Source: Mytilus galloprovincialis (lineage: Eukaryota; Mollusca; Bivalvia; Mytilida; Mytilidae). Taken from it: a DNA stretch of 64,000 nt. The stretch covers positions 95,065,743 to 95,129,742 of the forward strand of contig NC_134839.1 in assembly GCF_965363235.1 (NCBI RefSeq). Reading direction: 5' to 3'. Both the position numbers and the translations under genes were made by a program. Below, in pieces: positions 41,743 to 62,633 of the stretch (within the stretch, counting starts at the first letter, position 1; every line of letters starts with the position of its first letter). The notes under the pieces are model-generated. The model was given only the letters and a program-made list of their open reading frames with translations. It was not told the DNA's origin and made no database searches.

Positions 41743-41922
41743 TCATTGGACAACAGATTGATTATATTTTCCTTGGAATGACTCATTAGCCAAACTAGCT
41801 GCCTCGTCTCTGCTATATCCATAGGCCCAGTACATACACATCAATTCTTCCTTTGTTTCTATGTCGTCATCAAATTCGGGTCTGAGGAGAACATTTCTAC
41901 ATTCTTCTAGATCTGTTACATC
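41743..41922 (-). CDS. secreted C-x20-C EF-hand-like protein, copy 1, body exon
   Basis: The acceptor is TTTCGACAG (AG at 41923-41924). The phase-0 frame reads DVTDLEECRNVLLRPEF, DDDIETKEELMCMYWAYG and YSRDEAASLANESFQ, ending 59 codons in with TGA at 41743-41745. It joins in phase with the signal-peptide exon at 43949-44017 for an 82-residue secreted protein. C-x20-C-M-Y-W and the A-x(3)-A helix are shared with copies 2 and 3. The first Cys-linked loop (FDDDIETKEEL) looks like a weakened EF-hand. The second EF-hand is not in this frame; just past it another frame reads LSNDKNGYYILQ, which aligns with the intact loop of copy 3, suggesting a frame change in this copy. Either the protein ends early or this is a decaying gene. 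Confidence 0.68.
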   Translation of the reverse strand, partial: DVTDLEECRNVLLRPEFDDDIETKEELMCMYWAYGYSRDEAASLANESFQGKYNQSVVQ

Positions 41923-42582
41923 CTGTCGAAATATAACACAATATCATTATCAATTTATTAATTTGCCCGAAAGTGTTAAAATGAATTTCTATTTTATGTA
42001 ACTTCTTGTTTAAATCTTTTTAATTGTATGAATAAAACGAGATGTAAGAAAAAAAAGCTATCTGGATAGAGACACACGGCACAGATAACCGAAAGACATC
42101 TATAAGAGGTCGACATATAATAATATAGTATTCAATTACAGAAGATTGTGTCCTTTTTAAAGACGGATATAATTTATAACAAAATCCACAAATAAATGAA
42201 ATTCTAATGCAATTTGTATGTAACAATTTTTTTCATTGGCTAAAAGTTGCCGTCAAATCCACAGTTGACCAGGCGTAACTAAGGAGGGACAACCATTTTG
42301 AAATTATTGAATCAACAAATTTCGATTACTACTATATAATCCAAAATAAAACAACACCTACCTCGAATTCGCCGTTTTAAAGTTATTTTATCCGAATCTG
42401 AAGCGTACTGGTAACGTAATAACCTCCAGTTTGTAAGTTTTCATTTGTCTGACGTCACGTTTACCCATGACGTCTTTGCGCCAAAATCATTCATGAAGTT
42501 TCGCGGATATTTTTTTATTTGTCAAATTTAGACATTTTTCCAAGTTTTATCGTATTATTTCTTTTTGAAATGCATTAGAATC

Positions 42583-42747
42583 GGAATAACAGTACTGTAG
42601 TTGAAGAGTTGCCACCGTCAATTTTGATTTGACGGTCGAAAATCTCCGTTTTACTGTCTCCGCTACGCGTCGCCAGTAAAACTGCATTTGCGACCGTCAA
42701 ATCTACAATTGACGGTGGCAACTCTTCAACTACAGTACTGTTATTCC
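42583..42747. mobile_element. near-perfect palindromic MITE
   Basis: The 165-bp segment begins GGAATAACAGTACTGTAGTT plus GAAGAGTTGCCACCGTCAA and ends with the exact complement over about 40 bp. Inner parts (GTTTTACTG / CAGTAAAAC) continue the pairing, leaving only a short centre around TCTCCGCTACGCGTCGC. It lies in the intron of copy 1. Sequence just to the left (42245-42290) shares GTTGCC and CGTCAAAT words and may be a related remnant. Confidence 0.75.
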
Positions 42748-43379
42748 TTAATTATACTGTATCACAGAATACTCGCAGTTACCGAAACTTCATGTACATA
42801 ACCTGAAGACGAGAAATCATCCCGTCAAAATTCGTGTATCCAATGAATGGGTCCAAATTTTGAAATTTATAGCAGACATCAAACAACAACACTCAAAATT
42901 CCGAAAACAAAACCAAAGACGTACTAACACAAAACGAACACTACGAACCAAGATTTAAAGCAGCCTACAGTAAATGTAATTGTGATATCCTGAACATCTA
43001 AATAAATGGAATAGATGCATTCTACCATTCAACAAACTTTAAATTATCTAGTGAAAGTACATCACTTACATGGCGTATTTTGTAGTCAAAGTATCCGGTT
43101 CAATATTAAAACTGGTGTAGTGTAAAACAATCCTAGAATAGTTGAGATCAGTTCTTAAAAGAGGCTAGAACAAATGTAGTTGAAAAACACGTTCACCTAA
43201 GTTAACAATACAAATTAAGATTTCAATTTAGAAACGCCTTGATAAATATATAAATTGTAAGGCCATTTTATGGGGTTGCCAGTAAAATAACTATCTACCT
43301 TCAACCAAAGGACAAGGTTGTTATCTGTTCTAGCTCTCTCGGGAAAAAATTATATAAGATGGATTCGGCTAATATTCTA

Positions 43380-43490
43380 TTTAAGTCCGTTTTTGTCATA
43401 CAGTTTCTTGCGTATTCTTGTATTGATAGATTCTTGGCTTCCAATATAAATTTTGAGCGTTCCTTTTGAAGTTAAATCATTCGAACAAAC
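43380..43490 (+). repeat. R4 repeat fragment
   Basis: CCGTTTTTGTCATACAGTTT to TTGAGCGTTCCTTTTGAAG follows the R4 pattern seen at 11.9-12.2 kb. Confidence 0.4.
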
Positions 43491-43948
43491 ACGCCATGAC
43501 AAACAACACAAAGCGTGTTATTCTCCATATTTTAATACGATACATTTGTTTCTAAGTTTGCTATATGAAACATAGTTGAATTAATTGTTCATCGGTTTTG
43601 TCGATCTGTATGATGACTAACTACACTATTACGTTAAAAAAAATGAAATACGTTTATAAATTATGACCTTGAATATCTTTTTGTTATCTTTATTCTCCTT
43701 CTGATATATATTATATAATGTATAGCATTTCTGTATGTAATTATGCAATTGAAAGATAATTGCATCCGACGCATGGCAAATTGTCTGACTAGTGGGAGCC
43801 TAATGAACCCAATTTACAGTTGCTTTAAAACTGCTGTACAAGCCATTACAGGGGAATGTTTGGATGGAAAGTAATACTACCCTGTTACCTTACATAACTT
43901 ATCGACGTATCTTTGCTGATTTTCATGTGCAAGTTAAACTTGACTCAC

Positions 43949-44017
43949 CTGCTCATTATGTGCCTGTAAAATGTTACTCCAGAACAACATGTAACATATA
44001 AGGAAGAGAAACTGCAT
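43949..44017 (-). CDS. copy 1, signal-peptide exon
   Basis: The ATG at 44015-44017 follows an acceptor at 44023-44024 (TTGATTACAG) by five bases. Twenty-three codons, MQFLFLICYMLFWSN then ILQAHNEQ, form a signal peptide; the donor GTGAGT occupies 43948-43943. The exon ends in phase 0, matching the body exon at 41922. The nearby donor at 44637 (AAAA followed by GTAAGT) could close a non-coding first exon, the same layout as in the methionine-rich gene. Confidence 0.72.
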
Positions 44018-44637
44018 TGTACCTGTAATCAACATGAATAATACGGAGTAATTCCAATTAGACAGCCAGGTAACAATACAAACATATTAAATCAAAAACT
44101 AGAGAGATCAACACACATCCTTAGAAATATCCTTTCTCAAAATGTCAAGCACTGTTACTAGAAAGTAACATATACTAAAGATGAACTATTAACCCTTACA
44201 TGTATGTATAATGATTCAGTATAATACAGTGTACAAGTTATTAATATATCTACTTTACAAAAGTTTATATATTTTAATAAGCAGTCATTAATACCAGACT
44301 ATAATATAGCACTAAAATCACACTATAATAATATAGCAATCATCGACAATTTTAAAAGTAAAATGCTCCTAATTAGATCATACTCGTCTGCATGTCGAAT
44401 GGTTAAGGACAACAATATATATATGCACTCAACAGCTCTCAGGGAGGATAGTACAAAATGCTACAAGAACAAAATTCAACGACAATATAATTGTCTTACT
44501 TCTGACAATCGCTGGTAATTGTAACACTTCAGCTCACATTATCTTTTAGAGAAAGTTATATTATTACATATGTTTAGTTAAAAACACCCATCATAAGATT
44601 GCGAGACCAACAGACACAGATACTTACTTTTAATAAA

Positions 44638-44690
44638 CTATATCACTCCTCATAAATCCCTATAATGTAAAATATTAAATGTGTACATTC
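44638..44690 (-). other. possible non-coding first exon of copy 1
   Basis: A strong minus-strand donor (TTATTAAAA followed by GTAAGTATC, GT at 44637-44636) lies 600 bases upstream of the acceptor that precedes the ATG exon. The far end is only guessed, since no clear TATA box is placed. Confidence 0.3.
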
Positions 44691-45084
44691 GACATTGTGT
44701 AGGCGTGTTTGAAATGTCATAGATATTATAAGCTGATGCACTTTAACGTTTTCATAATCAATAAATTGTAGAAATGTAATGTGCAAGCAACTATAGTTCT
44801 AATATATGGCTATCCAAGTATTTGCTGTTAATTCATATACGAATGAGATTTATTGAAATCTTTCCATGCTAGATTTTGTTCAGGAAGTAAGGTTAACTGT
44901 AGTTGTTCCCATCATCGTCCTTAACGTTCTGTCTTTGTTAGTTCGTTGTTTCATTGACAATCATACAATATTTCCTTATTTCTTGATTTTAATAGAAACA
45001 GGTACTTTCTTTTCACAAATTTATTATAAAAAGGACATTTGTGTTGTCAAAACCCAAGTGTTGACTGGGGTATGGAAATATCGT

Positions 45085-45215
45085 CATAGTCCTTATAGAT
45101 ATAAAAGATGTGGTACGAGTGCCAATGAAACAAATCTCCATTTAAGTCACATTTTTTTTTAAAGTAAACTATAGTAGGTCAAAGTATGGTCTTCAACACG
45201 GAGCCGTGGCTCCAT
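45085..45215 (+). repeat. dispersed repeat R1
   Basis: GATGTGGTACGAGTGCCAAT, CAAATCTCCATTTAAGTCAC and GGTCTTCAACACGGAGCC are in R1 order. It ends just before the candidate exon at 45235. Confidence 0.6.
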
Positions 45216-45234
45216 GAATAACCCTCTTATCTAG

Positions 45235-45421
45235 CTTTGAAAACCTTGGTAAAAATGGGTGTATGTTTGGTTGTTCTGGATTTAAAGATAATCAAACACG
45301 TTCGGTTAGAACAGGGGCAATATCTCCAGAAGAATACACAGCCCATCGTGTCTGTGAGTGGCATGGACGTAGGAAAATGTGCATTGATGGCACTATCCAC
45401 AACACCTTTATTTTTACCTGA
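45235..45421 (+). CDS. possible terminal exon of a cysteine-bearing protein
   Basis: After CTTATCTAG (AG at 45233-45234) the frame starting at 45236 reads 61 residues: FENLGKNGCMFGCSGF, KDNQTRSVRTGAISPEEY, TAHRVCEWHGRRKMCIDG and THNTFIFT-like end IHNTFIFT, then TGA at 45419-45421. Four cysteines in C-x3-C and C-x8-C spacing, with a GC content above the flanks, suggest an extracellular domain. A GTGAGT inside (after HRV) could instead be a donor. AGTAAA at 45424 could serve as a weak polyA signal. No partner exon or family is recognised. Confidence 0.4.
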
Positions 45422-45885
45422 GCAGTAAAATACTTTTTAGATTTGTTGTTTACCTTTACTTGTTTTTGTCCTGAAAATATATGGAAAGTTTGTTCCTGGG
45501 AGTCATGTAAACATAAATCAATGGATCAACCATGTGATGTATTGGTGGGAAATGTCAATGATATACCAGCTGTAAGCCAATCTTATTTCCAGTGTCAAAC
45601 TAATTAATTATCTATGACGTGAAACTGTTTGATCTTGTGATCGAAGTCAAACTAGCTTAATTAAATATAGTACTTCAACCGTACTGTTAATTAACAAGAT
45701 ATGTTTTATTTATTTCACTTTTACTTGAAATAATTCAATATGCAAAGGTCGTAGTCACCATTCGCTAGTATTTTATGCTTTTTTAAACAACTGAAATTTC
45801 TTAACAAAAACTAATCATTTATATATACACCTTAAGCTGCTCACAAGGAAGCTATTAAACCAAGAGTTCCAAATGGTGATGTTGA

Positions 45886-46310
45886 AATCATCCCTTCGTA
45901 AATTTTACGGACGCCATCACGAGTTGCTTGACCGTTATGGAATAGCCGTTTCACAAATAATATCGGATATGTTCCATTCGTCGTAACTACAATCCCCTTC
46001 CCTTTCATGAATGTGACCTACCGAATTAGACTATTTACCGGATTTGTTATCACATAAGCAACACGACGGGTGCCACATATGGAGCAGGATCTGCCTACCC
46101 TTCCGGAGCACCTGATATCACCCCTAGTTTTTTGGTGGGGTTCGTGTTGTTTATTCTTTATTTTTCTATGTTGTGTCATGTGTGCTGTTGTTTGTTTGTC
46201 TTTTTCATTTTTAGCCATGGCGTTGTCAGTTTGTTTTAGATTTATGAGTTTGACTGTCCCTTTGGTATCTTTCGTCCCTCTTTTAAGTTTGTTATTTTAA
46301 GAACTAAATG
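45886..46310 (+). mobile_element. 3' part of a Penelope-like retroelement
   Basis: The segment carries ACGGACGCCATCACGAG, TTATGGAATAGCCGTTTCAC, CATATGGAGCAGGATCTGCC and ATGGCGTTGTCAGTTTG, followed by TTGACTGTCCCTTTGGTATC. The same order occurs in reverse at 59576-60016 directly after a reverse transcriptase frame, and again at 54060-54400. It is therefore the tail of that retroelement. It shows no intact frame. Confidence 0.58.
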
Positions 46311-46319
46311 ATATCTTTA

Positions 46320-47195
46320 ATTTCGTGCCTTCAAACAGATTTAAGATTAAAGATTAAAGATAAAAAGGCATAAGATACGATAAATAGCCAAACAAAATAT
46401 TGTACCCTCTCTTCAAGTGTTGGCTATATAACATTCAGATTGTCCGTATTTTCGTTGGTCATTCTGTTGGCCTAACAAATATTTCTTGAACTCTTTTATC
46501 AGATACTTATGAACAGAAAGACTTTATATTTTGGTCAGCAGCTTGATAGTCGTGAGGTGCAACGTTTCGGCACTTTTCGGATTTGTCAACCACCACAACT
46601 TCTTGTTTGACAACATTTCAATATTTTCAAATATTAAATGAACTTAAAATATTTCGAAACACAATCCTCAAGTACTACCGAAAAGAAAGACTTCACACTT
46701 GATCAGCTAAATGACCGTGATGAGTTGTAACGTGTCAGATATTTTGGACACCTTCTTCCTGTTTGTTGATGCCTTGAATTGTGCAAACAGTTGTAAGACC
46801 AAACCAAATACTAAGATGAAAAGCATTGAAAACCAGAATGTCTAAATACGGCTATGAGTATCTATACTTGGAGTAAAGAAATTGTATAATTCAACAAGTT
46901 ATAAACCGTAAATTCTTAGAAAATGAATCAATAACATATAGTTCATGTCAACACACAAGTCAGGTGATAACCCCGGTGATAAAACGTCTACCAAATGTGG
47001 AATCGACCTACTTGTTGCACAAACACAATTTATCAGAGCATTGAGAGCCAAAACTTCAGAAATAAAGTACCACTTACCACTAAAGTTATATTTGCCTGTG
47101 GTAGAAAAGTTTAAGTGTTATTAGAATAATTCAATAAACTGTACGTTTGAAAAAATGAACGGATCGATAATGTTCATAATTAACACAAAAGAGCA
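46320..47195. other. no gene recognised
   Basis: AT-rich sequence without a supported exon. A possible 18-base exon between splice-like signals near 47079-47096 (minus) is too short to accept. Confidence 0.4.
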
Positions 47196-47202
47196 GACTA
47201 CT

Positions 47203-47520
47203 ACTAGGTTCGATATACATATTGGGAGTACGAAACATTCTCCAGCGGTGGCATTGACTAAGACTACTAGGTTCGTGATACATATTGGGAGTACGAAACA
47301 TTCTCCAGTGGTGGCATTGACTAAGACTTCTAGGTTAGATATACATATTGGGAGTACGAAACATTCTCCAGCGGTGGCATTGACTAAGACTACTAGGTTC
47401 GTGATACATATTGGGAGTACGAAACATTCTCCAGCGGTGGCATTCACTAAGACTACTAGGTTCGTGGTACATATTGGGAGTACGAAACATTCTCCAGCGG
47501 TGGCATTGACTAAGACTTAT
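47203..47520. repeat. 63-bp minisatellite, five copies
   Basis: The units start ACTACTAGGTTCG, contain CATATTGGGAGTACGAAACA and TTCTCCAGCGGTGGCATTGA, and repeat every 63 bases with a few substitutions. Because 63 is a multiple of three and the unit lacks stops in at least one frame on each strand, long frames appear in both directions: repeats of IHIGSTKHSPAVALTK on plus and NATAGECFVLPICI on minus. No start context, intron or family supports coding. Confidence 0.88.
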
Positions 47521-47539
47521 TGGTTGCCAAAAATGTAAA

Positions 47540-48585
47540 GATACCTAGCTTATAATTAAGACATCCTGTTAAATTTAAAGGCAAATTAATTTATGATTCT
47601 TGTTCTCCTTAGTTGACGCTTTTATTTTTTGAAAACATTATCATGAAAAATGCAGTATATTTTCTTTCACATTAAATCAATAATTCAGATATTAAGTGGT
47701 CACTCCTTAAATATTTTTGGAATATATTTATTACTGTATAAGCACAACTGTTTTATGCGTAAAGGTGTATAAAAACAAAAGATGAATCAGACGAAGAGTT
47801 GTTAATGCAATAATGCATTGAATATGCTATAATTAATGTGAATTTATAATAAACGAGATATACTTTTAAATAACAATTGGCATGCAAAATAAAAAATGAC
47901 AAAAACACAAATTCGTGTGGGTTTGGATAAAGCAAAAGGAATTAAGTTTTAATCAGTTTTGTTGTTAGAAGCAAGTTTGGATTCATCTAAAACAATGTTG
48001 ACACGTTTTTAATCAATCAGTGTGTCTTTTTATCATTGACATTAGTGACGTTTCTGAGCAATTTGTAAGTCACAGTCGAAGTATAGTATGCCACAGAAGA
48101 ATAATGATAACAGAATGACGACAACAGTTCAATTGTCATTCTCGTTTCAAGTGTAGGTATATAGACGTTGTACCAAAACAGTTTAACCAGAAAATCTATG
48201 TTTCCTTTAAATGGCTTTAATCGTTCCATTATCTTTTCCCAAACTCTGTAAATAAACAAGAAAAAACTTGTCATTGGAGAATCGATAAACAAAGAATAAA
48301 AACAGATTTTCTAATCATTTCTATTTTTTTTAAGATTGCTACATTACTTGTTTCCTTTGGATAACATTTATTTCCTTCACCGAACTTAAATTCGTTTTTA
48401 AACATTTTAACCTTTTATATACGGATACTTAACCCTACGATGATGTTGATACATGTACACATTGATGTACATTTGACCTTCTCGGAAAGATACTGATGTT
48501 TTCATATGATTTGAAAATACTTTGCAATACAAACGATTATAGTTTATAGCTGCTCCCATCTGTTTTGTTATCTGTGTCTCAATTA
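47540..48585. other. no gene accepted
   Basis: A minus-strand acceptor at 48246-48247 (TATTTACAG) opens a frame that in phase 1 would add EFGKR and a stop (48229-48231); it is a possible last exon of copy 2 (50552-50702). The remainder is AT-rich. Confidence 0.3.
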
Positions 48586-48589
48586 ACTA

Positions 48590-49882
48590 TACACATGGAA
48601 AAAAGTATTGCAACACCAAATTGAAATTGAAATTAAAAAAACACTCTTTATTTTTTAGTGATATAATTTGTTAAAATAGAACAAGTTAAACATTATTTAA
48701 ATATCACCTGAGTTTGATCAATAATTATCGACTCGATGAGTTCTTATCTGCACATGCAGCTACTGTACCCGTAAACAGCAAAACAGGTGTTTTGATCCTC
48801 ATTGTTTTCAACACTTTAAATAACCAAGTTTATAAAGTTATTTGATTAACACCTTGTAATGAGTTCTCCACAACTCTTAACCGCAGCAAGATGGCAGATT
48901 ATCAGCATGAGAGAAGCAGGAATGTCGCTGTGACAACCGCACGTATTGTTGGTCATCACCATTCCACTATTAGTCGTTTTTAGAATAAAAATCGGGCAAT
49001 AAACGATGTTAAAGACTATCCGAGATCAAAAAGACCGCCTATGCCATCTGCTAGCGAAAATCAAGCATAATGAAACTTGGTCAGAAAGAAACCCATTGCA
49101 TACAATACAATCCTAAAAAGAGAGTGGTGAGCATACAGGAGCCTTTTAACACAAATTGTTCGAGATCGACTCATCGCTACTGGTTATTATGTAATAAGAC
49201 CTTTTCCGAGACCTTTGCTTACGAACAGACACACAGTTGTCCGTATCCAATGTAATGCAGAGCTCGCCTAAGTTGGAAATTAGCATCGTGTAGGAAGATC
49301 CATTGTTCCAGTTGAATTCGGTTTATCTTCCTTGGCCCGATCGTAGCCCGGATTTGAACCATATCGAGCACATATGGGACACTATTGGGCGTAATGTGCG
49401 CGAAAGGACACCCCGGTACAAACACATGCTGAAATAAACAATGCCCTTCATCAGAAATGGTTGCTGCTACCTTAGCAACACATTAGTCGATTTATGGTAG
49501 GAATGAGAAGACGTTAAGTGGCGGTTAACCGTTTGAATGGAGGCTGCGCAAAGTACTAATTCTTTGGCGTATAACGATCAACCATGATGTGAACCATCAT
49601 TTTAAGATAAACTTTGAAATGTCTGACATTGTAAAGTTCGACTACAGTTAAAGTTGTAAAATGCAGTTTTTTGTACAAAAAACACTTCATTTTGTTTTTA
49701 AAATTGTGGTTAGATAAATCATTTTTTTTTCAAACTTTTTTTGTTCGTTAAAATGCCAATGTAATCATAAACTATGTTTCAATATCATTTTACAAATATT
49801 TTATCATATTTCATCCAAAATAAAAGGCTGATTTTTCAAGTTTTAAAAAATCAAGGTGTTGCAATACTTTTTTCCATGTGTA
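48590..49882 (+). mobile_element. Tc1-like DNA transposon, transposase decayed
   Basis: The 1293-bp element has almost perfect 28-30 bp inverted ends (TACACATGGAAAAAAGTATT plus GCAACACC) and TA on both sides (48588-48589, 49883-49884). On the plus strand remnants of a Tc1 transposase are readable: AARWQIISMREAGMS (DNA-binding domain, near 48880) and LPWPDRSPDLNHIEHIWDT (the conserved P-W-P-x-S-P-D-L-N-x-I-E-x-x-W of the catalytic domain, near 49325). Between them the frame is broken by stops and shifts and part of the catalytic core is lost. It sits downstream of copy 2 of the secreted EF-hand genes. Confidence 0.85.
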
Positions 49883-49999
49883 TATATGATGTAGTTATTC
49901 AAACGCATAATATTAAGACAGAAAGTGATACATCGTAAATGGAATTATCAATCATAATGGATAATGTGAAAGGGACATATATTCGACTTCAATATAAAA

Positions 50000-50055
50000 A
50001 CAAGGATATGTAGTATGAAAGCCAATGAGACAACTATCCATCTGAGCCATATATA
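50000..50055 (+). repeat. R1 repeat fragment
   Basis: GTATGAAAGCCAATGAGACA and ACTATCCATCTGAG match the start of R1. Confidence 0.45.
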
Positions 50056-50164
50056 TTATATATACTGACGTAATAATCCAACAGATAATGTAAGGACCAT
50101 AAAGTATTTGGTTTTTCACATGTTTTTGTGAAAAGTAATCGTTTAATCTTATCTAACAAATCTA

Positions 50165-50410
50165 TTATAAGGAACAAATGATCAGTATGCTGGAGTTTCT
50201 GTTTGACCACACATTTGTTGAAATGGAGGAAGACTTGCTCAACAAATAGTCAGCATTTCAATTTGAACGAACTGTGCGACTCTACTTGTCGACTTCTATT
50301 TTCATATGAATCGGAGTTCCTTCAGACACTTGTTAAAAACACGATTGTCAAAGAAGCCAAGTCATAATATTTCACATACGAATATGTTGATGATACAGCG
50401 GTCCACAAGT
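50165..50410 (+). mobile_element. reverse transcriptase fragment, Penelope-like
   Basis: Frames on the plus strand read MISMLEFLFDHTFVEMEE, then LLFSYESEFLQTLVKN and FTYEYVDD. These align with the MLDFLIDN, LFLYSYEADF and FRYIDD stretches of the retroelement family at 59.6-60.6 kb. Only the part around the active-site YVDD remains and the copy is broken. Confidence 0.55.
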
Positions 50411-50551
50411 TCAAAATTACTGGTAAACAGACACTTGAATTACCGAGATAACAATTAAATGTGAATAAACATTTGATATATGATACTTAGCTATTGTTAC
50501 AAAATATAACTAATGAATCGATACTTTTTTAACAAAATAATATTTCTTTAC

Positions 50552-50702
50552 CCATTTTAGCAAATGTTTCTGCCTCCTGTTTAGTAAATCCATAAGCCCA
50601 ATACATGCATTTTAAGTAGCGTAGAGTGACTTGTCCATTTCCTGATTCATCGCTTAAAAGAACATCTCTACAATCATTCGTCCATTCTTCATCTAATCGC
50701 GC
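50552..50702 (-). CDS. secreted C-x20-C EF-hand-like protein, copy 2, body exon
   Basis: The acceptor CTTTACAG (AG at 50703-50704) opens in phase 0. The exon reads ARLDEEWTNDCRDVLL, SDESGNGQVTLRYLKC and MYWAYGFTKQEAETFAKM, and is followed by a GTAAAG donor (phase 1). C-x20-C-M-Y-W-A-Y-G matches copies 1 and 3. The loop DESGNGQVTLRY has D, S, N, G and V at EF-hand positions 1, 3, 5, 6 and 8 but Y instead of E at 12, a degenerate calcium loop. The second EF-hand is not in this exon. A candidate next exon at 48229-48245 would add only EFGKR. Two signal-peptide exons upstream (55388-55447 and 58620-58679) both end in phase 0 and could each be spliced to it. Confidence 0.72.
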
Positions 50703-51024
50703 CTGTAAAGATATAAATCCCCATAATATAGTTTCGTATGAATATAAGTTTTGTCACTTTATAATTGTCTAAAAGAATAAAAACCATCAAAATATAATAG
50801 CCTCCTCAAAAAAACAAAACGATACTAATACAGCAAGCTACTAGATTTCATGCAAAATTTCAGCGATCACAATACTATCCTTATCAGGTGTACAAAGAGA
50901 GATAACACATGCATTTTTGATATTGACTTCACTGTGCTAAAATAAATCAATTGTTATGATTATGTTGATGTATCATACTTTGTACGTTAATGCACCTGTT
51001 TCGTTAGGGATATCATTTGCTCTC

Positions 51025-51087
51025 CTAATCGGAAAGGCTCACTAATTCCACTATTTCGCGATCGTCCAAGTTGTCGTAAGTAGTAAT
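51025..51087 (-). CDS. possible small exon between copy 2 body and its signal exons
   Basis: A minus-strand acceptor (GATGTTTAACAG, AG at 51088-51089) opens a GC-richer stretch. In phase 0, the phase left by either signal exon, it reads ITTYDNLDDREIVELV then SLSD and TAG at 51025-51027. Another frame reads longer (YYLRQLGRSRNSG, EPFRLGEQMISLTKQ). If used, it would make a short alternative secreted peptide. Without transcripts this is speculative. Confidence 0.2.
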   Translation of the reverse strand: MTTYDNLDDREIVELVSLSD

Positions 51088-51089
51088 CT

Positions 51090-52390: not shown

Positions 52391-52394
52391 TGGG

Positions 52395-52556: not shown

Positions 52557-52559
52557 TAC

Positions 52560-53385
52560 TAAAAAACACCCACATATAGAGCGTGGTTATGTAATCTGTT
52601 GTAGGATGAAATTTTGTCAAGATTTTATGACTAAAGAAATTCAGGAAAGGTATCAAAAGTCATAGGTACTTGATGAGAGATTTTTTTTTTATTTAGCCCT
52701 CTACCCTTTTCCAAAGTCCGTAATTTTTTATGTTTGTTTTCTGTATACTATAAACATAAATATTCCATAAAAAGGTGTATTTTCTATTTACTATCAATTC
52801 CAAGTTTACTATCCACGGCAGTCACTGATATATTGAATGAGACTCTCTAAATAATATATTAGTGACCGCTGTGGATAGTAAACTTTGAATTAGTCTCTAT
52901 ATAATATATCAGTGACACCCACACAATCGCGGGCATTAAGAGCGTGGTTGAAAGTATGTCAAGTATTGTGGGATGAATTTTTGTAAAAGATGCTATGATT
53001 GGAGAATTTAAGGAAAGGTACCAATAGTTATCAAAAGTACCAGGATTATAATTTAGTACGCCAAAAGTCATATGTACTTGGTGACAGGACAATTTATTTT
53101 AGTCCTCTGCCTTTTTCCCAAAGTCTGTATTTTTTTTGCTTTCTGTTTTTCTGTATACTATGCACATAAGTATACCACAAATAAACTGTATTTGCTATTT
53201 ACTATCAATTCCAAGTTTGCTATCGTCACTATCCAAGGCGGTCACTGATATATTACATAGAGACTCTTTATATACTCGTGGATAGTAAACTTGGAATTGA
53301 TAGTAAATAGCAAATACACTTTATTTATCGTATATTTATGATCATAGTATACAGACAAACGCGAAAATAATGTCCTGTCCTCAAG
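52560..53385. repeat. direct duplication with hairpin arms
   Basis: A unit of about 385 bp running from ACACCCACA through AGAGCGTGGTT, AGGAAAGGTA and TGTATACTAT to CTATTTACTATCAATTCCAA occurs twice (from about 52563 and from about 52915). Each ends in a hairpin. The second is long: TACTATCAATTCCAAGTTTG and flanking sequence at 53140-53225 pair with 53280-53365 over about 85 bp. The 50-base loop contains GCGGTCACTGATATATTA, which recurs in the first unit. Related words in R4 suggest mobile origin. Confidence 0.6.
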
Positions 53386-53389
53386 TACG

Positions 53390-53790
53390 TGTGTAAATAA
53401 TGTATTATTTTAAGACAGTCATAAACGGAAGTCTTGTCTATGACTTAAAAGTCCGTCCGATGACGGAAACAATAAACAAACTCCTTTATTTTTGATTTTT
53501 TTCTAAAAATAACCCAAACTGAATAATCATAAGCGAGTATAACATGTATAACAAATGCGACTATGCATGGTACCTATAGGACACATATGCATGATGATAA
53601 ATTTATTGTGGAAGGAAGAGAAGCGACACACAAAATGAGGTCTTTTCATTTAATAGTATAGATGACATCTCATTTTATAATGGAAAGTTTTGTAACTATT
53701 TTGAACGCGTCTATTTTTATCTAACTAGAAATAAATAAGACAATAGATTTCCTATCAGGATTGCTGCTTGTCAATAAAGCTACATAAATG
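53390..53790. other. no gene recognised
   Basis: AT-rich sequence, no exon or repeat identified. Confidence 0.4.
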
Positions 53791-53794
53791 AGGT

Positions 53795-54055
53795 TACAAA
53801 CAAGATTAAAATCACTTAGAGGAAAATCAAATCGGAAAGTCCCTAATCACACTGCAAACTCAAACGACAAAACACATCAAAAACGAGAGGACAAGAACTG
53901 TCATATTCCTAACTTGGTACAAGCATTTTCAAATGAAGAAACATGGTCTTGTAGCGCTAAACCTCTTAATTTGTACAACGGTCTCGTCAAATTCCGATAT
54001 ATATTTATATACAATGATGCATAAACTAAACAGACATAATGAATAAAATAGTCAA
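53795..54055 (+). repeat. dispersed repeat R2
   Basis: TTAGAGGAAAATCAAATCGG, AACTGTCATATTCCTAACTT and TGCATAAACTAAACAGACAT correspond in order to 2565-2830. The open frame from 53788 is a by-product. Confidence 0.65.
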
Positions 54056-54059
54056 AATA

Positions 54060-54400
54060 TGGGTAACCTCAGTCATTCTTAAATGTCACGGATGCCATCA
54101 AGAGATCTCTGTCATCATTGAAAATCTGTTTCAGAGATAACTACTTATATGTTCCAATTGTCGGGACCACAATCACTTCCTCATCTTCGAATATACAAGT
54201 ACATGAGCATACTGCCAATGGTAGGATCTTTTTACCCTTTCGAAGCACCTGATATCACCACCATGTTTTGTTGAGAGTAGTCTTTAGGTTTCTATGTTGT
54301 GTTTTGTAGACTTGTTTATCGCTTGATGGTTTTTCGTCTTTTTTGTCTTGGCATTGTCAGTTTTCGACTTTGAATATTTCTTCAGTATCGTTCACATTAC
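54060..54400 (+). mobile_element. 3' part of a Penelope-like retroelement
   Basis: ACGGATGCCATCAAGAG, TTTCGAAGCACCTGATATCA and TTGGCATTGTCAGTTTTCGA match the tail at 45886-46310 in order, more diverged. Confidence 0.5.
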
Positions 54401-54429
54401 GATTATTGAAATAATAATAATAAAAAAAA

Positions 54430-54600
54430 CTAGCCATATAGTTTATAGGGTTTAAATAGTTAATGCTCTTCAACTTTGTACATGTTTGGCTTTTTAACTG
54501 TTTTGATATGAGGGTCAATGATGAGTCTTATATAGACGAAATGCGCGTCTGGCGTATTAAATTATAATCCTAGTACCTTTGATAATTATAATCACACTTT
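54430..54600 (+). repeat. dispersed repeat R4
   Basis: Best R4 copy in the window: CTCTTCAACTTTGTACATG, TTGATATGAGGGTCAATGAT, GACGAAATGCGCGTCTGGCG and AATTATAATCCTAGTACC. Confidence 0.6.
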
Positions 54601-54604
54601 TGTA

Positions 54605-55385
54605 ATTTTGTTGCACTAACATACACATCAAATCCAAAACAAGTTCATCTTTTTATTCAACCGATTAAAAAGTATTCAATTTTGTAAAAATTTTAGCAGT
54701 CCAACACCATGGGAGTTCTAAGATCAACATTTTAAAGCTTGTTTGTCATAGAAGATGTTGTTTATATAAATATTGGATTTATTAAGTTTCGATAAGCCGC
54801 ATATGCTTGCAAGAGAAATGACAAGACAACTAACACAGAGACCATATAAAAAAGGCCATTACATCTACTTAAGATGTTCGAACAAATTATTTATATTATT
54901 CAAGATTAAATATTACACATTCAGTTATAAAATAATGATGATGAATACCAAAGATGGTACTGATTTCAATAATAACGGTACCTCCGACAACATAAAATGA
55001 AAGTTTCAGACAATTTAATTGCTTTAGTGTCGTTATTCCTTTTTCGAAGCAATAACAATCTGACTTGTTTGATGGCGTCATGCGACGTAACGTTTTGAGT
55101 GAATCATAATGTCATACAGATAATTATTTGGAGGCTACGTCAATAAACAGACGACGAATGTCAGGTAGTGGCAATGGTTGTCAATAGCTCATATAAGCTC
55201 TAACAGACAAAAAAATGTACAATTTACCCTTCTTTCAATATCCGAGATCAAGGAAATCCATTAGGACATTTGTGCACAATCTCGTTTTTAAAACATTTGC
55301 GTATTCCTCTTGTAATTTAAATAACTCAATTTAGAATATGAAGTTTAAGCATCAGAAGATACATGTAACAAAAGTAGTAACACTG
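54605..55385. other. no gene recognised
   Basis: Intron-like AT-rich DNA between the body exon of copy 2 and its first signal exon. Confidence 0.4.
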
Positions 55386-55387
55386 AC

Positions 55388-55447
55388 CTGACTTTGTTGT
55401 ACGTTCCATGAAAACAAACATAACGTTAGAATCATGACAAAATGCAT
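55388..55447 (-). CDS. copy 2, signal-peptide exon A
   Basis: The ATG at 55445-55447 starts 20 codons, MHFVMILTLCLFSWN then VQQSQ, followed by the donor GTCAGT (55387-55382), phase 0. This is a typical secretion signal. It differs from exon B at 58620-58679 at only a few residues, and the upstream DNA is also similar (for example the TATTTTATGCAAG block at about 55543 and 58777), so the exon and its promoter region were duplicated. It joins in frame to the body exon at 50552-50702. Confidence 0.7.
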
Positions 55448-55449
55448 AG

Positions 55450-56155
55450 TCCGACTTATATGAATGTGTGCAGCAAGAATGTGGAAGTTTGTGTTTATGA
55501 TGAAAAAGGATCTACTGAAACAATCTTACAATGACAAATCTACTATTTTATGCAAGTTTCTATACAGAATTATTGATTAGCACTGATATCGCTTTACTAT
55601 ATTAATTTAAGTTTCTTCAATATTTACAAATATTGATTTATGATTAGGTATTACATGTTTTCAGAATAAAAGTATCAGATATCTGATGTTAGTTCAGTAG
55701 TCAAAGACTAGTCATGTTTACATATACCAGAAGGTACTAGACAATGATAACACAGTGTATTTTATTGTCCACAATACAACTGGGAAATGTCGTTTTAGTG
55801 CAATATAAGGATGACGAGGGAATTCCAGTGATATAAAACAATCCACTAAAAAATAGAATAGTTTAATAGTAAAATAATAAGGTTTCTGTGAACTAATTAT
55901 TTTTGTCGATGAATTACTTTAAACATATTTTATTGTTAAAAAATGACAAATGGATTAGACACAAGTCTATGTCGATGAATGATACGAATCAAATTCAAAA
56001 AGTATACATGATTGTTTTGAAGAATATATTCTAGATATTGCCTTTGTCATCTTAGTTACGTGTCATAAAGTTCTTTTATTTGTCTTTGTAATTAATAAAT
56101 CTTACTGCTTATTCCATTTTTGATAATATGCTTTAGGCTTGACTCGGTACTTATG
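55450..56155. other. upstream region of signal exon A; no other gene
   Basis: The first 200 bases resemble the upstream region of signal exon B, including CATAAAATA (minus strand) that may act as a weak TATA element. Beyond that the sequence is AT-rich. Confidence 0.4.
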
Positions 56156-56159
56156 CATC

Positions 56160-56560
56160 TCGCCAATGTTTTTTGTGCTGTTGTCATTTGTTTTGTATTT
56201 TTCTCTTCCTTTTTGGCTAATATGATTTGTCTATATACCAAATGAGTTTTTTTTTTTTTTGCTGACATTTTATTTGTTATAGTGATTATGATGTTAACAC
56301 AATGTAAACTGCTGGACTCCTATTATTGATATTTTTACATGTAATTTCTGTTTGGTTTGTTCATACATTGCTGACAATATAATGGAATTTTATTGGACTA
56401 TCATAAAAGAGAAAGTTTCAACTAGCTATGAAACAACGGTTCCACATTAGGAAATGCCTGTACCAATTCAGGAATATGACAGTTGTTTTCCATTCATTTG
56501 ATCTTGTAATTTAGGACTTCGTTATTTTAGGATTTTGTTATTTAACTTTTTAGGATATAT
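56160..56560 (-). repeat. dispersed repeat R2, reversed, with its longer upstream part
   Basis: GACTCGGTACTTATGCATCT, TGTAAACTGCTGGACTCCTA, TATAATGGAATTTTATTGGA and GAAATGCCTGTACCAATTCA follow the order seen at 28560-28850 and 59115-59575. Confidence 0.55.
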
Positions 56561-57298
56561 GTATTTAAAAACATTTGATCAAATCTTAGATTAAGGCCAC
56601 ACCAATTTAATTCCTTGTTCGACAGACCCGCCCGCACATATTTTTTTCAAAACAGAATTTTTTTATTTTTTTTTATATTCCCGCTTCCCGCATCCGGAAA
56701 TGTAATCATGTCCATTTCCAGCACCGTTTTTTTTTGTAAATGATATAAAAAGATATCAACATTTGTTTTTAAAATCACTGTCTAAACCTGTATATAACGA
56801 TTTTAAACCTATCAGCACCACACTGTGTAAATATCTGTGAGAATATTTGTTTGAGCATGAAACCCTAGTGCTCCGATATAAATATATAACAGCGGAAATA
56901 CCTGTAAAGAACAAAACGTTGGTTTCTTTCCCCCTTACACATATTCCCCTATAAAAAAATGTTCGTTGTTAGAATAAAGTACAAAGAACTTCTGAAGGAT
57001 TTGCCTTCAACTGCAATTACATTGTATGCTGGCGAAACAAAACTATCCATAGCCGCTGCATGTTTATGCACCTGTTCTGATTGATTCGGGGGCCTGTCGT
57101 TCAACAGTTGTCGTTTGTTGATGCGGTTCATTGGTATTTTCCCGTTTGCCGGTTTGGATATATAAATTCGGTCGTTGGTTTTTCTGTTCGAATTATGTAT
57201 ACTAATAATTTTAGGGTCCTTTATAGCTTGCTGTTTGATGACGGTCTGGACCAAAGGCCTGTGTAAAAGGCTGTACTTTGACCTGTGTTTGTCATTAT

Positions 57299-57704
57299 CA
57301 GGTTGGGAGCAACTCTCCCTCAGACAAGGGGTTATTTTACTGATGTAGAAATGAAATAGAAATACCAAGAATTTGTATATTGCTACTAAAAAAACTAAAA
57401 GAGGGTTCCACTTGTTTTGAATACTATTGAACTGTTAAAGTAAATATGTTAACATGGTAAAAGTCCAGGAATATTAAAAAATTCTTGGAGACATGTTTTG
57501 ACCATTTACTACCAGATAGATATATAGTTCTTTGGAAAAATATGAGCCCTTTTGTACTAAAAAGTGTTTTTTTTTTACAAGAAAAGATATTATATTAAAC
57601 TTATATCAGGGACTTTCTATACTTACTTAGTATAGAAAGTCCCTGCTTAAACTGACACCTCATAAAAGGGATATTTATAAAATTAAGGGGTTGTTCCCAA
57701 ACTG
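57299..57704. mobile_element. CAGGTTGGGA family element, copy B
   Basis: The 406-bp insertion begins CAGGTTGGGAGCAAC and ends GTTCCCAAACTG. It is flanked by ATTAT on both sides (57294-57298 and 57705-57709) inside an R1 repeat, so its boundaries and a 5-bp target duplication can be read directly. It is homologous in reverse to copy A at 40084-40478. It contains a perfect 17-bp hairpin at 57607-57645. It has no coding capacity; the superfamily is not assigned. Confidence 0.68.
57607..57645. repeat. perfect 17-bp inverted repeat
   Basis: CAGGGACTTTCTATACT, the spacer TACTT, then the exact complement AGTATAGAAAGTCCCTG. It lies within copy B of the CAGGTTGGGA family. Confidence 0.85.
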
Positions 57705-58039
57705 ATTATGACTTGGATGGAAAATTGTCTCATTGTCAGTCACACATACATAGACCAGATTTAACTATTCAGTTATTTCTTGGTGAACAGGGAAAAATTA
57801 CTTCATAAGTTAAAGAAAAGTCAAAGTACAAGTGATAATCAAGTTTTAATAAATGTCAAAACCTACTATTTTATGTTTACGAAAAAAAAAATAATCGCTC
57901 GACTTAAATTTTCAAGCTTCGCCTCACAAAATTGCAAATTAAATATTTTTTTATTAAAATTTTCAAATCGCTCGCTCGCCCCAAATTTTGGAGTCCAAAA
58001 ATCCGTAGAACAAGACATTAATTTGGTGTGGCCTTATAG

Positions 58040-58615
58040 CAATTTATCCATCAATTGATTTTTTTAGAATTTTTCTTTTTGAATTTTACATTTTATAAAA
58101 AATACCATGCGTTTAAAGTAATAACGGTCATGTTGGTTTGATGTCTTAAAAGGAATGCATTTCAAAATAATTATAAGGAGCAAATTGTTGGCAATATTGA
58201 AACAGCTTAGATGTTCAAAAGATAGGCCAAAGATGTCGCTAATGACAAAAGCTTATAACGGTATTCATTTGGAACATATTATTATTATGTTCTAGTTTTA
58301 GTACACAAGGTATACATTGATATTGTTCATTTTAAAAAATTTGTAGAATCCTGCCGTTTTTCGTTTCACAGATAAAATATCATATCTCAAAAACAGCCCA
58401 ATCCAAAATAAAAATCACCAAATAAGACCCTCATATTTAATGGATTGCAATGTCTTAATGACATGTCGTTTATCAGATCAATGTTTTATAACTTTTAGGG
58501 TATTTCTCAGATCAATGTTTTATAACTTTAAGGGTATTTCTCATAAGCACTTATTATAAGTTTTTTTTAACAAAAGCCAATATCTAAGTTTACACCTCAC
58601 AAGATATAAAATAAC
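58040..58615. other. no gene recognised; short tandem duplication near 58480-58550
   Basis: CAGATCAATGTTTTATAACT plus TT-AGGGTATTTCTCA occurs twice, about 33 bases apart. The rest is AT-rich. Confidence 0.4.
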
Positions 58616-58619
58616 TCAC

Positions 58620-58679
58620 CTGACTTGCTTGTACGTTCCATATAAACAGGCATAACGTTAGAAGCATGACGAAATGCAT
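58620..58679 (-). CDS. signal-peptide exon B (duplicate of exon A)
   Basis: The ATG at 58677-58679 starts 20 codons, MHFVMLLTLCLFIWN then VQASQ, followed by the donor GTGAGT (58619-58614), phase 0. The donor is closer to consensus than that of exon A. No body exon was found between here and exon A, so it is either an alternative first exon of copy 2 or the leftover of a partial gene duplication. The upstream region has CATAAATAG and CATAAAATA as possible TATA elements on the minus strand. Confidence 0.62.
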
Positions 58680-59114
58680 AGTTCCCCGTCAAAGTATTGG
58701 TATGACAAGTCCGTGGAAGATTCTATTTATGTGGAATAAAGGTCCCTTGTTACAATACTTCAATGACTGCTGTCGTATTTTATGCAAGCATCCCGACGGA
58801 ATTATTGATTGGCACTGCTATTGTTTTAACTGTATCAAAAACAATATCTTCTATATTTACATATAACTCATTACGAATCCGGTACATGTATTTATCTATT
58901 ACTTAAGAGATATGTAATGTTTATGGAGGCGGTATTGCAATACTACACAAATTACTGGAAAACATAGAAAATACAGATAAGGTTAATCAATTCACATGTA
59001 AATGTAGTTACGGTTGTTTTTCATTGTTTGTATCTTTCATAAATAATACACGATTGCCTTTGCGTATATATTCTAGTCACTGACGTTGTTTGTCATCTCA
59101 ATAACGTATTATAG

Positions 59115-59575
59115 TGTTCCTTTGTTTGTTTGTATGCCTATTGCTTTTACTGTTTAGTCTGTTCTTATGGTGGTATTCATTGTACTTGGCTCTGTATTTA
59201 TACATCCCGTCATTGTGTTATTGTTCTATGATATTCTTTGGTTTTTTTTTTATTTTTGCTAATATGCTTTTTCTGTATGCCTTTTTTTGTGTTTCTTGGT
59301 TATATATGACGTGACTCTGTAATTATACACCCCGTCATTATTTTATTGTTCTATAATAAATTCTGTATTCTTGTCTTTTGTTTTTGGTAATGACATTTGT
59401 CTGTGTGCCTTTTTGTTGTTTCTTTCCTGTATGTGACGTGGATCTGTACTTTTTATAGTGATTAAGACAGTAACACAACGTTGACTGCTGTATCCTATTT
59501 TTAACATTTTTACCTATATTGTGTGTTTTTTTTAAGTTTGCACATTGTTGTCAATGAAATGGAATTTTATACGAC
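59115..59575 (-). repeat. R2-related repeat with about 125-bp internal units
   Basis: CTGTATTTATACATCCCGTC (59191) and CTGTAATTATACACCCCGTC (59317) head units about 125 bases apart, and a third partial unit starts near 59441. The segment then continues as at 56280-56400 (ACACAACGTTGACTGCTG, AATGGAATTTTATACGACTG). Confidence 0.55.
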
Positions 59576-60640
59576 TGCCAGTCTTAGAAAAGAGAGACGA
59601 AAGATACCAGAGAGATAGTCAAACTCATAGATTGAAAATAAACTGACAACGCCATAGCTAAACATAAAAAGACAGACAGACAAATAATAGTACAGAATAC
59701 AAAACAAAGAAAACCAAAGACTAAGCAACACAAATCCCACAAAAAACTGGGGTGATCTTAGGTGCTCCGGAAGGATATGCAGATCCTGCTCCTCATGTGG
59801 AACCCGTCGTTTTGCTATTGTTATTACAAATCCGGTCAAAAGTCTAATACAGTAGGTAACAATGGTTTCAATGGAAGGGTATTGTAGTTACGACATAAGG
59901 AACATATCCGATATCATCTGTGAAACGGTTATTCCATAACGGTCAACTAACTTATGAAAGCTTCCGTAAAATTTACGAATGGGTGATTTCAACTTCACCA
60001 TTTAGAATTCTTAGTTTAAAAGCTTCCTTTTGGAAAGCTGAAATCATCTCTTTTGTCGTAAAGTTTTGTTTTCAACCGACCCTCATTGTCAATTTCTAGA
60101 TGTAAGTCAAGATATGAGACCGACTTAACTGTATCTGTAATATCCTTTATCTCTAGTTCGATGGGATAGATGCGTTCAACATAGTCACCAAATTTTGGAT
60201 TATTTAGCGAAAGAAAATCGTCTATATATCGGAAAGAAGAGTTGAAGGATATTCCTAACTTCTTATCTTTCTTCCTAAGAAGTTCCTGAATGAAGTCAGC
60301 CTCATAATAATAAATAAACAAGTCGGCAAGAAGAGTGGCACAATTTGTTCCCATTGGAATGCCGACAGTCTGTTGAAAAACACTCTTTCAATTTGTCTTT
60401 TAGTTTAGAATGTGGAATACTTGTGTAAAGTGTAGAAAAGTTAAATTAATGTTTAATACTATTACAAGATGAAATAGAGTTAGATTGTATGTACTCTAAA
60501 AGATCTTTGGAATTTTTTTAAGTATCCACATCTGATTCACGCCACCTCTAGAATAGGCAGTTTCGCAATAACTCTGAAGCCCGTCTTTGATTGCTAATAA
60601 AATAGATGTTGATAATTAAGAAAGAGGTTTCGTGAACATA
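59576..60640 (-). mobile_element. Penelope-like retroelement, partial reverse transcriptase and 3' tail
   Basis: On the minus strand a frame from about 60365 to 60016 reads GIPMGTNCATLLADLFIY, YYEADFIQELLRKKDKK, SFRYIDDFLSLNNPKFGD and SVSYLDLHLEIDNEGRL, ending KLYDKRDDFSFPKG. FRYIDD is the RT active-site box. Upstream remnants (IKDGLQSYCETAYSRGG, VNQMWILKKF) occur near 60520-60600. Downstream comes the non-coding tail shared with 45886-46310 and 54060-54400. The Penelope-like assignment rests on the overall motif style and is not certain. The copy is incomplete. Confidence 0.68.
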
Positions 60641-60711
60641 ATCTATGTTTTCAATCATAATAATGTGAAATTAAAATTAAGGAGTACATATAAAATGATG
60701 TTTGAATCTAT

Positions 60712-60717
60712 TTTATT
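60712..60717 (-). terminator. polyadenylation signal of copy 3
   Basis: AATAAA on the minus strand, about 80 bases past the stop at 60794-60796. Confidence 0.6.
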
Positions 60718-60793
60718 GAACAAACAACAAAATGTGACGTATTTCTAATTTACGCCTATGATCCATTTGATCATCCGTTTAGTTCCGTCTTTA

Positions 60794-60804
60794 TTAAAAT
60801 TCTT
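60794..60804 (-). CDS. secreted EF-hand protein, copy 3, exon 3 (last three residues)
   Basis: The acceptor CTTTTTCAG (AG at 60805-60806) and phase-1 joining create GAA from G plus AA. That glutamate is exactly position 12 of the EF-hand loop DTNKNGAIDGDE. GAA, TTT and a TAA stop follow. Only eleven coding bases are needed to complete the loop, which strongly supports this tiny exon. Confidence 0.72.
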
Positions 60805-61262
60805 CTGAAAAAGAAAATTATATGTCAATTGCACTATGTTGTATAATCATTTTCAAAGGCAATGTTGAGTAGTTATACATTGTCAGGTTATTCGGCGCCA
60901 AATCATCACTTTATATCATTAAACGTAATGGGTTATGGTAACACAAATGATAGACACAAAATTAATGACGAAAACGGCATTGAAAAGCAGAAACAAGATA
61001 AAATTGCCTTTGTATTTTAATGTTCCGAAATAGCCGTGTTCTATTGTTTCCATGTACCGCATACTGGGACAATTATTAATCCTAAAAGCCTTTAAACGAA
61101 AAAAATATCTTATTAAGTAAAAAGTTTTGAGCACTTGTTTCAGAAATAGTTCAATCATTTACTCGGGCTTTTTGTAACAGATTTCGAAAATATAGATCTC
61201 TTTATTTATTGACTTTTGGAAGTAAGATTCCAAATTAACTATATATCAGTTGTTTAACCTAC

Positions 61263-61446
61263 CATCACCATCGATAGCTCCGTTTTTATTTGTATCATTT
61301 TCTAAGAGTGTCTTGTCAGCCATGTTTTCTGCATCTTTTTGTGAATTACCAGAATCCCAGTACAGACATACCATTTCTTCTCTGGTTAATGTACTATCAT
61401 CTATTTTAGGACTCTGAATCAATTGGTCACATTCTTCGCTTATTTC
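61263..61446 (-). CDS. secreted EF-hand protein, copy 3, body exon
   Basis: The acceptor TTTTTTGTAG (AG at 61447-61448) opens phase 0; the donor GTAGGT (61262-61257) closes in phase 1 after 184 bases. It encodes EISEECDQLIQSPKI, DDSTLTREEMVCLYWD and SGNSQKDAENMADKT, then LLENDTNKNGAIDGD. C-x20-C-L-Y-W matches copies 1 and 2. The first loop is degenerate; the second, completed by exon 3, has D, N, N, G, I and E at positions 1, 3, 5, 6, 8 and 12 and should bind calcium. Joined with 62553-62633 and 60794-60804 the protein has 91 residues: signal peptide, two-EF-hand domain, no tail. It is probably secreted or in the secretory lumen; the function is unknown. Confidence 0.82.
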
Positions 61447-61669
61447 CTACAAAAAAGGTCAATTTCAAATACTGAACACGACTTATATAAACTCGGGATG
61501 AATAAGACACACAACCCGTTTGTTTTGCAGGTGAAGTTGAAATTATGCTCAAAATTCGATAACGTCTCTTTTCAATATAATCATAAAAATATAGATTTTA
61601 TCACTGCAACAAGTGTGTTACGATATTTCGCTACTCGCGACGGTACAATTTTATTATTTTAAGCGCGAA

Positions 61670-62545
61670 GCTTGCTGAGCTTTTTAAATGGTATTTTAAT
61701 TTAACTGTTGAGAGTTGAGTGCTATCATATACACGAGTTATAGTGGTGGTATCTGTTTCTCGTTATGTTTTTTTTTATCCTTTGTCAAAGATTTGCAAAG
61801 AATTGTGTTCTTCATACGTGACGTCATCGGGCATAGTCGACTTTTTTCGGGACGTCACAATAGGAAATTTGGAAGAAATCAAGAAAAATTTAACGTCATA
61901 ATTAAATTTCGACCAATCAATTGCTGAGAAGAGTGTATCATTAGTGAGGAATTAAAGTGTTCATGTTGTAAAACCTAGTTTACAACTACTAATTATCTTA
62001 CCAAGGGTCTACATGATTAGTAAATGGCTCTGGGAATGATCAAATGATTTTGTTGTATTTATGCCAGTGTTATATTGTTGTCTACCTTTGGTGTAGATCA
62101 ACATCGGTTATTTAAGTGTTTTATAAGAAAAACTATTAGTTGTAGAGATTATATGTTTTATTTTACAAAGAATGTTTTGAATGTGAGCAACATAGTCATT
62201 ACACTTTGAATTATTCTTTGAGGGATAACTACTTTAAAGCTGAGCGTCATAATGTTAGCCTATTTTCACTTGTCTTTAGAATCCATTGGGTATTCAATTA
62301 ATGCTAGGACTACAAGGCTTGTCTTGCACATGGATACACTGAAATATTTCATTTTGAATATATTTCCCGAATGTTTTACATTACCACGAGATGTCTGTAG
62401 GTTCAGAACACTCGCAAACATCAACGTAGTTCATGTTTATTTGTAAAAAAACAAATATTTAATCATCCGCTTCAAGGTTCAAAATGTCTACATTCATTGT
62501 GTTTTTATATCTATTGAAAACCCCAATTGAAATAATTGTAAATAA
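61670..62545. other. first intron of copy 3; no other gene recognised
   Basis: The stretch around 61800-61860 has a TGACGTCA palindrome (61819-61826) and a second GACGTCAC, but these lie in the intron and are not assigned. Plus-strand frames at 61715-61927 are not convincing. Confidence 0.4.
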
Positions 62546-62552
62546 TGCTTAC

Positions 62553-62633
62553 TGTGTCTCTTAAACTATTTCTTCTATGAATTCCCAACACTATTGTGGT
62601 ATATACCAATAAAACTGCTAGTCTAATAAACAT
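62553..62633 (-). CDS. secreted EF-hand protein, copy 3, signal-peptide exon
   Basis: The ATG at 62631-62633 lies about 43 bases after a TATA box. Twenty-seven codons, MFIRLAVLLVYTTIVLG then IHRRNSLRDT, give a signal peptide and a short basic stretch. The donor GTAAGC (62552-62547) leaves phase 0. Unlike copy 1, no intron is needed in the 5' leader. Confidence 0.78.

Follow-up and report, generated by a model that had tools for sequence, protein, structure and literature searches.

A tandem family of small, probably secreted EF-hand-like proteins with a fixed cysteine spacing in the mussel Mytilus galloprovincialis

Three minus-strand genes (copies 1, 2, and 3) encoding small proteins with two cysteines exactly 20 residues apart (C-x20-C) lie in a 64,000-nucleotide stretch of the Mytilus galloprovincialis genome, referred to here as the window (NC_134839.1, or C2, 95065743 to 95129742). 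Each combines a separate body exon with a predicted signal-peptide exon whose phase-0 end is followed by a GT. An earlier reading made from the letters alone (the sequence-only reading) had described these exons as a cluster of small secreted EF-hand-like proteins, and the coordinates and translations of all three bodies were borne out, as was the presence of a separate phase-0 signal exon before each one (Table 1). The product of 91 residues that it gave for copy 3 was not reproduced; the signal and body exons of this gene encode 88 residues, to which a tail would be added. About 8 kb separates the copy 2 body from its signal exon upstream. A second intact signal exon sits between the two and may serve copy 2 as another first exon or be what remains of a lost copy.

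The whole genome (1.38 Gb, 331 contigs) was searched by tblastn using the three window bodies and a relative on contig C3 (C3a) as queries, and the best candidates were scored. The same genome has a mussel foot protein 1 decapeptide array on C4, with 16 matches in a single open frame of 770 codons, as would fit a Mytilus-type mussel. At least nine C-x20-C bodies were recovered, seven on C2 and two on C3. Those on C2 are mostly arranged as two tandem blocks, with duplicates of copies 1 to 3 (c1p, c2p, and c3p) following in the same order 66 to 74 kb beyond the originals and c3pp as the seventh body. The two C3 bodies adjoin one another, C3a intact and C3b pseudogene-like. All eight open copies have a predicted signal exon; none was found for C3b where one was sought.

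Paralogy within the window is partly indirect. The copy 3 body detected copy 1 at an E value of 2.4e-4 and a C3 relative at 3e-8, and the copy 1 body detected copy 2 at 2.9e-4. Copies 2 and 3 did not match each other directly in the genome search, and the C3a query reached copy 2 at just 0.057. Copies 2 and 3 are counted as kin because copy 1 and C3a connect them. A profile built from seven bodies identified seven in the 194-kb stretch around the window and no fourth body within the window (next best E value, 2.9); since the profile includes the window's three bodies, their own matches hold by construction.

The C-x20-C spacing, already singled out in the sequence-only reading, is kept in all nine bodies. 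An alignment of eight of them, with C3b left out, has seven invariant columns (C, T, C, W, G, A, and A). The M/L-Y-W core holds for the copies in the window, but the motif after the second cysteine broadens to [MLI]-[YF]-W in paralogues beyond it.

A structure model with a predicted local distance difference test score (pLDDT) of 78 has the order helix-strand-helix-helix-strand, the topology of an EF-hand pair, and among the matches listed, all 50 from Foldseek and all 50 from VIA-align are EF-hand proteins by title, at modest scores. Because the model and the structural matches give an EF-hand pair, the x20 spacing can be read as 6 residues, a 12-residue loop, and 2 residues. Together with the signal exons, these results uphold the earlier description of the proteins as secreted and EF-hand-like. 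Pfam EF-hand models matched one of eight bodies (EF-hand_8, 1.2e-4), below cut-off; the c3pp product gave 2.9e-4, at best 21 bits against a cut-off of 28; and C3a, scored as a product with an earlier choice of tail (acceptor +750), gave 18.5 bits against 25.9. No family body reaches a Pfam EF-hand cut-off, and a scan of the copy 3 signal plus body and of bodies 1 and 2 returned no families, in line with the earlier impression that the layout belongs to no named family. A profile of all bodies matched solely F1-ATPase alpha chains in PDB, at E values of 1.4 or worse, which were judged to be chance, and the C3a product with the +750 acceptor gave nothing convincing there (two matches, E value of 0.6). 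An Rfam scan gave no matches at gathering scores. The C-x20-C proteins form a branch within the EF-hand superfamily and do not represent a new fold.

The members differ most in their Ca2+-binding loops. Loop 2 of copy 3 reads DTNKNGAIDGD, which is 11 of the 12 residues, and the body then stops at the opening base of the codon for residue 12. Residue 12 must come from a further exon. C3a has a canonical 12-residue loop 2 (DLDKNGVIDGE+E), completed across the predicted tail splice. In the alignment, loop 2 is absent from copies 1 and 2; hand 1 of copy 2 still has a loop that is close to canonical (DESGNGQVTLRY). The view that copy 3 alone has a full EF-hand loop thus needs amending on both counts, and the accompanying view that its first hand is degenerate was correct. 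Another frame of copy 1 contains SNDKNGYY, a possible relic of loop 2 that is suggestive only.

The position at which these bodies end is shared. In copy 3, c3p, c3pp, C3a, and C3b, a GT follows the first base of the loop 2 residue-12 codon, and in copy 2 and both C3 genes residue 12 is provided by the predicted tail. The predicted tail exons of C3a (E-LFGRPNPEKTKNVTA) and C3b (E-LYGRPNKERYRM) are alike; comparison of the two led to acceptor +750 of C3a being dropped for +777. The predicted tail of c2p encodes E-V-G-K-R, compared to E-F-G-K-R in copy 2. For copy 3, acceptors were sought over about 11 kb downstream in copy 3, c3p, and c3pp, and none was consistent among these paralogues. Read-through in place of splicing is unlikely for copy 3, as the frame of the read-through tail differs between copy 3 and c3p.

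Table 1. Exons of the three window genes and related loci (window positions unless a contig or locus is named)
Feature	Position	Strand	Details
Copy 1 signal-peptide exon, MQFLFLICYMLFWSNILQAHNEQ	43949..44017	-	Donor GTGAGT, phase 0; 0/69 bases differ in duplicated block
Copy 1 body exon	41743..41922	-	C-x20-C-MYW; hand 2 lost; in-frame end at TGA
Copy 2 signal-peptide exon, MHFVMLLTLCLFIWNVQASQ	58620..58679	-	Donor GTGAGT, phase 0; peptide identical in duplicated block
Second intact signal exon, MHFVMILTLCLFSWNVQQSQ, near-copy of that of copy 2	55388..55447	-	Followed by GTCAGT; also in block 2
Copy 2 body exon	50552..50702	-	C-x20-C-MYW; loop 1 close to canonical, loop 2 missing; donor G|GTAAAG, phase 1
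Copy 2 predicted tail exon	48229..48245	-	Acceptor TTTACAG; completes E-F-G-K-R-stop
Copy 3 signal-peptide exon, MFIRLAVLLVYTTIVLGIHRRNSLRDT	62553..62633	-	Donor GTAAGC, phase 0; 0/81 bases differ in duplicated block
Copy 3 body exon	61263..61446	-	C-x20-C-LYW; phase-1 donor G|GTAGGT
C3b, pseudogene-like family member beside C3a	C3:31964703-31964888	+	Extra in-frame TGA codon
L045, Cys-less secreted two-EF-hand gene	L045 1109-3033, C9:78647303 region		Three predicted exons, 117 residues spliced in silico

The same intron position recurs in ordinary EF-hand genes. Scoring of 150 of 314 candidates gave at least 57 EF-hand_8 matches in the genome, of which C3 carries 43, and 10 of the 57 (L048 to L057) were read for comparison. 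Nine of these 10 loci, all but L052, have a GT at that point in the residue-12 codon. The C3 arrays were considered as close kin of the family and rejected: at least six of the 10 loci are plainly calmodulin-like, and the six stretches scored against the family profile gave no more than 5.5 bits, so they were not counted as members. EF-hand genes on C3 cluster at about 5.0-5.14, 40.1-40.2, 43.8-44.2, and 48.6 Mb, and the array members read, L048 and L049, are calmodulin-like.

A gene on contig C9 (L045) scored far higher, at 18.4 bits against the family profile, where the best of 2,000 shuffles of its own sequence reached 4.6 and the best of the six genomic EF-hand stretches reached 5.5. Plain tblastn gave it an E value of 2.2. 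This gene has a signal exon and a body with a canonical loop 1 but without cysteines. It shares the GT position, its tail begins EFT, and it passes the Pfam EF-hand cut-off (32.2 versus 25.4). Judged by these sequence features, L045 is the nearest outgroup found, and it ties the family to ordinary EF-hand genes. The family would then descend from a calmodulin-type EF pair that gained the cysteine pair and, in copy 3, lost Ca2+ binding in loop 1. Through the intron position and the Cys-less paralogue, the cluster traces a route from calmodulin-type EF hands to secreted proteins.

The explanation that we favor, with moderate confidence, is that these tandem genes encode small secreted proteins, each an EF-hand pair, and arose when a signal-peptide exon became joined to a calmodulin-type two-hand module. 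Block duplication produced c1p, c2p, and c3p. The signal exon would be spliced in phase 0 to the one body exon, which holds both hands, and a tail exon would finish the loop 2 residue-12 codon in copy 3 and its relatives and in the C3 genes. Hand 1 of copy 3 would have lost Ca2+ binding, with a disulfide between the sole two post-signal cysteines holding its two helices. Under the high-Ca2+ conditions of extracellular fluid, hand 2 of the copy-3 and C3a types would bind Ca2+. The best reading of the loops is that hand 1 is dead, perhaps disulfide-stapled, and that hand 2 is alive solely in these two types. The protein could then act outside the cell as a Ca2+ buffer, a carrier, or a Ca2+-stabilized matrix component, with the mantle and shell as the most likely site. 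With loop 2 gone, copies 1 and 2 would either function without Ca2+ at that site or be decaying. Such Ca2+ binding by loop 2, an extracellular role, and a mantle or shell site are proposed from the fold, the signal peptide, and published extracellular mollusc EF-hand proteins. Because neighboring copies either have or lack the second Ca2+ loop, the loss of Ca2+ binding can be tested directly.

Comparison of the two blocks separates the copies by their apparent fates. Between copy 3 and c3p, only 1 of 264 coding bases changed, versus 57 of 984 bases flanking the body (p 2e-5). This contrast indicates that the copy-3 type behaves as a working coding gene, and by this measure copy 3 evolves under strong constraint; gene conversion of exon size would be a less likely source of the identity. 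Copy 3 and c3pp differ with a nonsynonymous rate (dN) of 0.31 and a saturated synonymous rate (dS) of 2.9. Copies 1 and 2 are not clearly constrained and may be diverging or decaying. They could be pseudogenes, leaving copy 3, its relatives, and C3a as the working members, an alternative that deserves weight even though we consider it unlikely on balance. All five changes among the 246 coding bases of copy 1 and c1p fall in the body and alter amino acids, a rate like that of the 150-base flanks (10/298; p 0.44), and C3b, with its extra TGA and no signal exon found, would be a member already on this path. However, against 300-base flanks (36/597) copy 1 appears constrained (p 0.013), with the caveat that these flanks include a high-divergence stretch that is perhaps misaligned, and both copies remain open, with cysteines and splice sites kept and signal peptides unchanged across the blocks.

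Two cysteines outside the signal peptide were present in all five products written out (copy 3 without its tail), suggesting an internal disulfide or a dimer. Disulfide-linked dimers in place of a staple seem doubtful. The number of cysteines would allow them, and the intra-hand pair of SPARC has a different spacing, x15, but there is no evidence of an interface, and the spacing in the nine bodies suits either reading.

Copies 1 and 2 could also have become disulfide-bonded secreted signaling or defense peptides that no longer bind Ca2+, copy 2 being amidated and about 50 residues long, which we regard as improbable. G-K-R-stop is the usual C-terminal amidation signal, and the predicted tails of copy 2 and c2p both finish this way. 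Hand 2 is missing from copies 1 and 2, and the copy 2 body has changed faster than its flanks (20 of 150 bases versus 56 of 968; p 0.0015). Amidated neuropeptide precursors are marked by a signal peptide and a G-[KR]-[KR] cleavage-amidation site. On the other hand, the copy 2 tail exon, which would supply such a site, is a prediction from 17 bases; no such site occurs in copy 1 or in the copy 3 signal plus body; and loop 1 of copy 2 is still near canonical. Of the copy 2 changes, 15 alter amino acids and five are silent (dN 0.138, dS 0.181). Because silent changes are raised as much as amino acid changes, there is no clean sign of positive selection. Replacement of Ca2+ by the staple followed by discard of hand 2 is plausible, and if the full series were true (staple replacing Ca2+ in hand 1, loss of hand 2, and gain of an amidation signal by copy 2 to yield a disulfide-stapled secreted peptide), one 20-kb cluster would display the steps from a Ca2+-sensor fold to a Ca2+-independent extracellular peptide, but we consider this series very unlikely.

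Other features in the window include a minus-strand frame at 15932-16189 whose product would begin with a signal peptide and continue into a stretch containing Met and Gly (MIQKVVALFLVVCLAGSAFAQFDNFAQMMLLRHMMNPGG...); it has no Pfam match and may be a secreted matrix protein. A reverse-transcriptase-like fragment on the minus strand at 60016-60387 (FQQTVGIPMGTNCATLLADL), which we take to be Penelope-like, has no Pfam match above cut-off in that frame. Repeats are visible in translations of several frames at 47121-47538. A Pfam scan of ten longer window frames hit four families weakly, in three of the frames, and all scored below their cut-offs.

Literature searches, with subscription journals mostly outside their coverage, returned no recognizable account of a C-x20-C EF-hand family, and none is described in the available portions of six papers (PMC6641155, PMC4517812, PMC3039611, PMC3299671, PMC5549309, and PMC6171432). 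The closest counterparts, by analogy, are the extracellular EF-hand proteins of bivalve shells. Mollusc EF-hand proteins that have signal peptides or are called extracellular have been studied in shell formation, including Pinctada EFCBP and EST genes 000262, 000493, and 002138 and abalone Hdh-SMP5 (PMC3120837, PMC10741955). What the window family shares with EFCBP and Hdh-SMP5 is a signal peptide and an EF hand. Unlike the window family, Hdh-SMP5 has 134 residues and three predicted Ca2+ sites, and the available portions of these accounts, compared by description only, mention no cysteine pair or x20 spacing. As a lead only, EF-hand shell-formation proteins are described in part of one source as under positive selection in Mytilus (PMC9063065). 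Bivalve shell formation relies centrally on secreted Ca2+-binding proteins, many of them uncharacterized.

Among better-known EF-hand proteins, calmodulin has its EF pair in the same register as the window family, by a weak match (E value of 0.57), and calmodulin-type genes place a GT at the same point in the residue-12 codon of the last loop. Calmodulin is intracellular and four-handed, whereas the window genes combine a signal exon with a body exon of at most two hands. MCFD2, an EF-hand pair of the secretory pathway, is among the top structural matches of the model. The sequence-only reading did not recognize as a named family the layout of a cysteine pair bridging the degenerate first hand of a secreted EF pair. 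For a pair within one hand SPARC/BM-40 is a precedent, also having a Cys pair around one loop. SPARC does not figure among the fold matches listed, a point given no weight here. In SPARC this pair is bonded, lies in hand 2, and is spaced C-x15-C, whereas in the window family it surrounds hand 1 as C-x20-C. SPARC is also a much larger protein with a follistatin-like domain; in the window genes the predicted signal exon leads directly to the EF body, and a Pfam scan covering the predicted exons returned no match for the signal plus body of copy 3. The small family is real, no description of it was found, and it is a variation on a common secreted EF-hand type.

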